DNA of 32,324 nucleotides from Gammaproteobacteria bacterium (GTDB taxonomy: Bacteria > Pseudomonadota > Gammaproteobacteria > SZUA-152): NCBI GenBank assembly GCA_022340845.1, contig JAJDNG010000007.1, positions 1 through 32,324 on the forward strand. The letters are read 5' to 3'. This document shows, one piece after another, positions 17,165 through 19,696 of this stretch. The notes under the pieces were generated by a model. It saw only the letters and a program-made list of their open reading frames with translations, did not search any database and was not told where the DNA came from. A program made the position numbers and the translations under genes. Position 1 is the first letter of the stretch. Each line of letters opens with the position of its first letter.

Positions 17165-17186
17165 TTTTGGGAGAGGGTTCCCAAAA
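17165..17186. promoter_or_regulatory. operator-like inverted repeat TTTTGGGA-N6-TCCCAAAA
   Basis: Perfect 8-bp arms immediately downstream of TATAAT and 9 bp before the ATG. Confidence 0.75.
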
Positions 17187-17194
17187 TTGTCATT

Positions 17195-18046
17195 ATGAGC
17201 AGCGAATTGACGTCACAAAAAGCGCTTTTTAAAGCGGTATACAAATTAATGCGCTCCCTGGTACGCATTCTGTTACGTAATGGCGTTCCCTACGGAGCAT
17301 TTACTGATATTGCCAAACGCGCGTACGTGGATGTGGCAATGAAAGAATTTGGGGTGCCCGGCAAAAAGCAAACCAATTCCCGGGTGGCTACTATCACTGG
17401 CTTATCCCGTAAAGAAATCCAGCGCGTTATTAGTCTCAATCTCAGCGGTGATCAGGAAAAAGATATGGTGGTGCGCTACAATCGCGCCGCCCGAGTGGTG
17501 TACGGCTGGGTACATGACAGAACCTATGCTGGCCAGGATGGCGATTCTGCCATTTTGCCGTTTGAGGGGGATACTCCCAGTTTTAGCTCCCTGGTCAGAA
17601 CTTACAGTGGCGATGTGCCGCCGCGCGCCATATTGGATGAATTACTGCAAGTGGGCGTGGCGCAGCGGCTGGATAATGGAAACATTAAGCTGTTGGAACG
17701 GGCTTATATCCCCACCAAAGGCGAAGCGGAGAAACTGGTGTTATTGGGCCGGGACGTGGCAGGTCTGATTTCCACGATGGATAAAAACATTCACGGCGTG
17801 CACGACATCCTTTATTTTCAGCGTAAAGTGTTTTACGACAATCTATCCGAAGAAGCGGCCGTGGAATTTCACGAGTTTTTACTCAACAAAGGCCAGCCGC
17901 TGTTGGAAGAGTTTGATCAATGGATGGCCCAGCGCGACCGCGATGTGAATCCTGATGCCGGCGGCAGCGGCCGCAAAGCCGTTGGCGTGGGTTTGTATTA
18001 TTTCGAAGAAGAACTTCAACAAGATCCTCCGGAGTCCTCCTCATGA
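17195..18046 (+). CDS. DUF6502-like protein, putative HTH transcriptional regulator
   Basis: 283 aa; N-terminal KAVYKLMRSLVRILLRNGVPYGAFTDIAKRAYVDVA...NSRVATITGLSRKEIQRVI is typical of this family and contains an HTH-like segment. Confidence 0.75.
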   Translation: MSSELTSQKALFKAVYKLMRSLVRILLRNGVPYGAFTDIAKRAYVDVAMKEFGVPGKKQTNSRVATITGLSRKEIQRVISLNLSGDQEKDMVVRYNRAARVVYGWVHDRTYAGQDGDSAILPFEGDTPSFSSLVRTYSGDVPPRAILDELLQVGVAQRLDNGNIKLLERAYIPTKGEAEKLVLLGRDVAGLISTMDKNIHGVHDILYFQRKVFYDNLSEEAAVEFHEFLLNKGQPLLEEFDQWMAQRDRDVNPDAGGSGRKAVGVGLYYFEEELQQDPPESSS

Positions 18047-19446
18047 ATTGTTCCTTGTTACGCTTTTTTTCATTAAGCGCGTCCTTAAGCATAGTGCTCA
18101 GTTTGCTCGTCGCGGCGTGCAGTGGTGGTGAATCCGGCACCGGTTTCGGCGGTAGTTACCCCAAAGTGTCTGTGGGAGTGATTACCGGTTTCGGCAGTGT
18201 GTTTGTCAATGGCGTTGAATTCGATACTTCCCGGGCTGAGATCAATGTCAATGAAGCTATAGCCAGTGAAGAGGACTTGGCCATCGGCATGGTAGTGAGC
18301 GTGGTGGGTTCTACCGACCAATCTCAGGTTAGCGGCAGCGCTGATGCGATATATTACGAAAGTGAAGTGTGCGGCATAGTCAACCAAAACGATCAGCCTG
18401 ACCAATTGGAAATTATGGGCCAGACCGTAAAATACGATAGTGAAACGGTGTTCGATAGCAGTATTGATACCGTGGCGTCAGTTGCGGAAATTCCGGTGGG
18501 CGCTGTAGTGGAAATCACTGGATACCGCACTGGCGACAACAGCTTGCATGCCACTCAGATTACTTTGCTACAGAGCCAGTATAATGACGGCGAGCAATTG
18601 ATCGTTAACGGTGTTGTGACCGCCGGTGTCTCGTCCGGGAAATTTTCGATGGGCACACTCACGGTGGTGGTTGACGATGTAACGCAATTTATTAACCTCC
18701 CGAACAACCAGATCACACCTGGCATGGCGATAAAAGTTAAAAGCAAGCGGGGTCTGGTGAATACTAATGAGTTGCTCGCAGATCAAATTCAATTGAACAA
18801 AAATCAATACGTGGTCGCAGGCAATGTTCTGGAAATCGAAGGCATTGTGATGAATCCGAATCTGCAAGCCAATGAATTTCAGTTAAACGGATATACCGTC
18901 TATTTTTCAGCTCAAACCAGGTTTGTCGATGGCGCTGAGGATAATCTGGCCGATGGCGTAAAAGTGGAAGTGGAAGGTGTATTGCTGTCGGACAATCAGC
19001 TGGAAGCTGGCGAAATTACTTTTCGCAAATCAGCTAAAATCGATTTAATTGCACCAGTGACTTCCATCAATATTGCTGACAACCAAGTAAACCTCTCGGG
19101 CGTCAACGTACGACTGACCAATAGAACTTTGTTGTAAGACGACGATAGAATCACCAAAATCAGGCAATTCTCGCTGGAGGATCTTAGCGACGGCGATAGA
19201 GTCAAAATTAAGGCTTTCCGGGATAACCTTACTCAGCAAATTATAGCGATCCAGTTCCGACGCGTAGAAGCGCAATCCGCAGATTCAACCTTTGAAATTA
19301 CGGGTATTTTGGATGAATTGAACAATGCGCAGGCGATTATCGCCGGTGTCGCCGTCGATACTGCAGGTTTGTCTCCCGTGCTCACCAATGCCGACGTTGG
19401 AACTGATGTTACGGTTGTCGGTACGATCCCCATTTCCACCCAATAG
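18043..19446 (+). pseudogene. DUF5666-like lipoprotein gene interrupted by an in-frame TAA (19135-19137)
   Basis: Lipobox LLVAACSGG; repeated ~70-80 aa beta-rich units. The frame continues past the TAA for 102 codons to TAG 19444-19446, with continuing DUF5666-like sequence. Intact part is 18043-19137 (364 aa). Confidence 0.7.
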
Positions 19447-19638: not shown

Positions 19639-19666
19639 TTGACGGTCGTTTGCTGCAGTGTATAAT
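19639..19666 (+). promoter_or_regulatory. sigma70-like promoter of the second DUF5666 gene
   Basis: TTGACG - 16 bp - TATAAT. Confidence 0.75.
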
Positions 19667-19672
19667 CTTGCA

Positions 19673-19696
19673 TGTTTGGGAATATATTCCCAAACA
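19673..19696. promoter_or_regulatory. 24-bp perfect palindrome, operator-like
   Basis: TGTTTGGGAATATATTCCCAAACA is identical to its reverse complement; sits at the expected +1. Confidence 0.85.

Follow-up and report, generated by a model that had tools for sequence, protein, structure and literature searches.

The window, i.e., the whole stretch of DNA analysed here, is contig 18 (32,324 bases) of a 3.84-Mb draft genome in 289 contigs, with a completeness of 91.6% and a contamination of 1.9%. It carries a DUF6502 gene followed by two genes for DUF5666 lipoproteins, the first of which is interrupted by an in-frame stop codon. The features of the locus are as follows.

17166–17185, no strand assigned: palindrome TTTGGGAGAGGGTTCCCAAA 5′ of the DUF6502 gene, one of two sites in the genome
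17195–18046, plus strand: DUF6502 gene (PF20112, 267.7 bits)
18043–19137, plus strand: truncated DUF5666 lipoprotein gene, an open reading frame of 364 codons and TAA (PF18914 matches at 18373–18561, 18610–18789 and 18862–19017)
19054–19224, plus strand: DUF5666 domain 5, broken by the stop (PF18914, 27.6 bits, one TAA inside)
19135–19137, plus strand: in-frame TAA, codon 365, within DUF5666 domain 5 (a sense codon in 41/41 aligned homologous frames)
19138–19446, plus strand: post-stop remnant of 102 codons and TAG (coding composition, leave-one-out profile score, module identities)
19639–19666, plus strand: sigma-70-like promoter TTGACG-N16-TATAAT (11/12 consensus matches; a consensus match, not proof)
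19675–19694, no strand assigned: palindrome TTTGGGAATATATTCCCAAA 5′ of the second DUF5666 gene, the other of the two sites in the genome
20046–21521, plus strand: second DUF5666 lipoprotein gene (paralog), intact (PF18914, 142.3 bits; Lys at the position aligned with the stop)

The end of the DUF6502 gene (18046) overlaps the ATG of the first lipoprotein gene (18043) in an ATGA, and the product of the latter has a predicted signal peptide with a lipobox-like LVAAC. DUF5666 lipoproteins (PF18914) are often encoded beside DUF6502 (PF20112), and the same pairing is found at this locus. The resemblance to known DUF5666 lipoproteins extends to the lipobox-like signal, the tandem DUF5666 barrels and the neighbouring genes, with DUF6502 immediately 5′ and another DUF5666 gene 3′. 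The difference lies in the frame itself, which is open at the site in the relatives and is broken here by a TAA in domain 5.

This TAA is in frame with the ATG at 18043, and another 102 sense codons follow it in the same frame before the TAG at 19444–19446. When the stop is read through, the resulting protein matches PF18914 in four stretches with 110.3 bits, against a cut-off of 27, which places it in the family; the open reading frame is not continuous through all DUF5666 domains, as the TAA falls within the fifth. The first-pass annotation had described this stop and the open tail behind it, and both the description and the positions agree with the reading of the frame and with the DUF5666 match at 19054–19224, which spans the TAA. 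It had also placed a Lys of the paralog at the stop column, which the alignment confirms. The further claim of 102 conserved codons holds for the first ~43 post-stop codons, which complete domain 5; the ~58 codons behind them encode a C-terminal module of weak conservation, with an identity of 11–42% to other copies. A Pfam search of the tail matches residues 6–29 only (17.6 bits, below the cut-off). Restart of translation downstream, giving a separate product, was considered and rejected as unlikely, since the first ATG, GTG or TTG in frame after the TAA is the TTG at 19309, which is 57 codons past the stop and still within the remnant.

A structure model of the read-through protein, built on an alignment of 22 sequences, has a mean pLDDT of 82.9 and a pTM of 0.65. 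In the model, the stop is located in strand 363–366 of barrel 5, and the strands that close this barrel, 386–393 and 400–408, lie after it, together with the whole C-terminal module. According to this model, the 364-aa product would retain the signal and four complete barrels. The fold search returned OB-like barrels, with CusF, CcmE and S1 among the weak, partial matches, from which no function was drawn, and the DUF5666 literature provided no usable function.

The sequence after the stop has the character of a gene. The chance of a 102-codon open frame, as estimated from base composition, is P ~0.006, and the other two plus-strand frames over the tail contain 3 and 8 stops. The GC content by codon position is 0.56/0.39/0.52 in the tail and 0.54/0.37/0.52 in the gene before the stop, compared with 0.45/0.44/0.45 in the intergenic DNA that follows. 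The coding score of the tail, 0.17 per codon, is slightly below that of equal-sized windows before the stop (0.18–0.33); the values for the other two frames on the plus strand are −0.27 and −0.62. Such gene-like codon-position GC and coding score indicate that the tail is coding sequence, either as a remnant or as a part that is still used.

Homologs were drawn from 60 related genomes and from a set in which each species is represented by a single genome, and the frames spanning the site were aligned. Apart from the query, a sense codon occupies the stop column in all 41 aligned frames (Glu 12, Lys 10, Asp 8, others 11). As one repeat-rich gene is represented by a few overlapping frames, the number of independent genes is somewhat lower. 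In the sole congener compared, the syntenic DUF5666 frame is open over 482 codons and has Lys in this column; the DUF6502 protein of that genome is 69% identical to that of the query locus. The nearest relatives of the query protein are only ~35% identical, and synonymous sites are therefore assumed to be saturated; a near-identical copy of the locus was not present in the comparison set (one genome per species, one congener). The family members end after domain 4 (query position ~328), after domain 5 (~407) or later, and none at 365. The possibility that orthologs simply end at the stop column, on which the first-pass annotation had made its claim depend, thus does not apply, and homology continues downstream in the same frame. 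This is the pattern of a nonsense allele, with a sense codon at the column in 41/41 frames and the tail aligned beyond it. Of 148 genomes surveyed in the class, 39 contained DUF5666, with no internal stops among the matches listed, which do not include the weakest ones, that of the query among them. A TAA flagged in another genome (G002) as an equivalent stop proved to be the terminator of that gene after domain 5, and a pattern scan of viral contigs gave no copy of the site. In one related genome (G004, contig 107, loci L029–L034), a DUF5666 frame of ~720 codons contains many closely similar DUF5666 repeats, which suggests a recent amplification of the domain.

The first-pass annotation had reasoned that the lack of further decay makes the event recent or the tail still used. 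As far as this rests on the missing second stop, the argument is weak. A neutral tail is expected to gain ~0.08 new stops per 0.01 substitutions per site, and at the 5% level up to ~0.37 neutral substitutions per site could have accumulated without producing a second stop, so its absence dates the nonsense event only loosely. The profile score of the remainder of domain 5 is a stronger sign of limited decay. In a leave-one-out profile, the 40 residues after the stop reach 31.5 bits, where the family median is 27.0, and outscore 21 of the 35 members; the part just before the stop scores 16.9 bits against 21.9 in the family. The mean identity to close relatives drops from the pre-stop to the post-stop part by 0.034 in the query and by 0.044 in other pairs. 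Neither the profile nor this comparison of identities detects decay of the tail, which argues against a very old nonsense event, as such an event would predict it.

An ordinary, fairly recent nonsense mutation, truncating the lipoprotein to 364 aa with four domains and a fragment, is the probable explanation of the stop. The ancestor of 18043–19446 would have been a normal DUF5666 lipoprotein gene encoding five barrels followed by a short C-terminal module, in which a point substitution would have turned codon 365 into TAA; most relatives have Lys, Glu or Asp there. Either RF1 or RF2 should terminate at the UAA and release a 364-aa lipoprotein in which four barrels are complete and the fifth is a fragment, and the remaining 102 codons would be an untranslated remnant, little decayed so far. 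The downstream paralog should still be expressed, because it has its own likely promoter and operator, and it may lower the cost of the truncation. What the sequence contains is a TAA with homology on both sides, a sense codon in every relative and a coding tail; from this we infer that the TAA is real in the organism, that it terminates translation efficiently and that the shortened protein is produced. Ordinary nonsense alleles and young pseudogenes have the same single in-frame stop, intact homology beyond it, intact relatives and no recoding signal, and no feature of the query gene was found to differ from them. In two other genomes, the DUF6502 gene carries one in-frame stop (G002, contig C166, 7710–8504, TAG; G028, contig C98, 19245–20036, TGA), which indicates that nonsense alleles occur in this accessory gene pair. 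Among the three options of the first-pass annotation (nonsense mutation, sequencing error and programmed readthrough), the first is thus supported, and the last is without positive support.

A less likely source of the stop, although one that retains some weight, is a consensus error or a mixture of strains in the draft, so that the organism, or most of its population, would have a sense codon and make the full-length protein. A one-base error would suffice to produce the TAA, the frame is otherwise undamaged, and the draft consists of 289 contigs. However, the 62 ABC_tran stretches of the same genome contain no in-frame stop, nor do the 18 other genes of the window and the other DUF5666 domains, which indicates that the assembly is not error-rich; moreover, the TAA is located in mid-contig.

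It is very improbable that the truncation was favoured, with the 364-aa form as a working protein of a family that varies in the number of its C-terminal barrels. Several relatives do end naturally after domain 4 (L020, L029, L038 and L054, at query positions ~327–334), and both the lipoprotein signal and four entire barrels are preserved in the 364-aa product. Nevertheless, the stop in mid-domain leaves ~30 residues of an unclosed barrel, and no relative ends at this column.

The remaining explanation is a programmed or tolerated readthrough of the UAA, by which a 364-aa form with four barrels and a longer, 467-aa form with five barrels would arise from one gene. The tail frame is intact and coding-like up to its own stop, and in this it resembles the extensions past the UGA codons of nudL and pheL in Escherichia coli (PMC5373646). 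Unlike those cases (PMC5373646), the codon here is UAA, no stimulatory element was found and the stop is present in no relative. The native readthrough in the E. coli study was confirmed at UGA codons, and bacterial readthrough was called rare relative to frameshifting (PMC5373646). The genes of both release factors are intact in the genome. UAA is recognised by both RF1 and RF2, and no suppressor tRNA with the anticodon UUA or CUA was detected among the 28 tRNAs found, an incomplete set in this draft. A change of the genetic code was rejected as well, as genes of the window terminate in all three stop codons (TGA 9, TAG 5, TAA 4), RF1 and RF2 are both encoded and the tRNA search yielded no suppressor. 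The RNA structure after the stop does not differ significantly from shuffled sequences (z of −0.57 and 0.29), and the Rfam search of the same region gave no match; on these grounds an RNA recoding element was rejected. A programmed signal should be conserved, and the stop is shared by 0/41 aligned frames. Readthrough is the least credible of the explanations considered.

Beside the nonsense allele, the locus contains a candidate regulatory element. The palindrome TTTGGGA-N4..10-TTCCCAAA has exactly two sites in the genome, 17166–17185 and 19675–19694, both with a spacer of N6. The first lies nine bases 5′ of the ATG of the DUF6502 gene, ahead of the DUF6502–DUF5666 operon, and the second just 3′ of the sigma-70-like promoter at 19639–19666, upstream of the second DUF5666 gene. 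It is thus probable that the latter gene is transcribed from a regulated promoter of its own, with a leader of ~350 bases. This intergenic leader is not unusually stable on folding, and a lax Rfam search of it gave chance eukaryotic matches only.

The same type of palindrome recurs in the loci of the relatives. The sequence TGGGA-N6-TCCCA is found within about −120 to +10 of 17 of the 35 distinct DUF6502 genes, compared with 11 occurrences in the other 265,079 bases of these loci; several of these 11, by inspection, stand 5′ of DUF5666 genes. Relaxing the spacer to 3–14 bases added no site at any other DUF6502 gene, which sets the spacer of the palindrome at 6. In the 60 related genomes, the strict palindrome occurs in nine places, six of them in DUF6502/DUF5666 loci; the other three (G002 C117, G045 C49 and G053 C9) are away from any DUF6502 gene found. 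The palindrome precedes DUF6502 genes in Gammaproteobacteria, Nitrospirae and Deltaproteobacteria. In 22 of the 32 site orientations with a nearby TTGACA-like hexamer, this hexamer is located 15–17 bases before the centre of the N6, so the centre can double as a −10 box, and in many loci of the relatives the ATG follows within a few bases of the palindrome. The rule is not universal, as the centre of the first window site, GAGGGT, is not −10-like, and the second DUF6502 gene of the genome (C215) has no strict palindrome. Four loci (L039, L045, L050 and L062) carry divergent DUF6502 genes (~32% identical) without a TGGGA site just upstream, and a different inverted repeat, of the type CATATGTGT-N9-ACACATATG, stands at the same position before DUF6502, possibly reflecting a changed specificity of the operator.

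The simplest reading of this distribution is that DUF6502, of which no mention was found in the literature searched, is probably a DNA-binding autorepressor that controls the DUF5666 lipoprotein genes. The stop itself is ordinary, as it truncates a single accessory lipoprotein of one bacterium represented by a draft genome, and it serves chiefly as a caution for annotation. Its surroundings, with the candidate operator, are worth more than the stop codon, as the recurring palindrome makes DUF6502 and DUF5666, two domains of unknown function, a testable pair of putative repressor and regulon.
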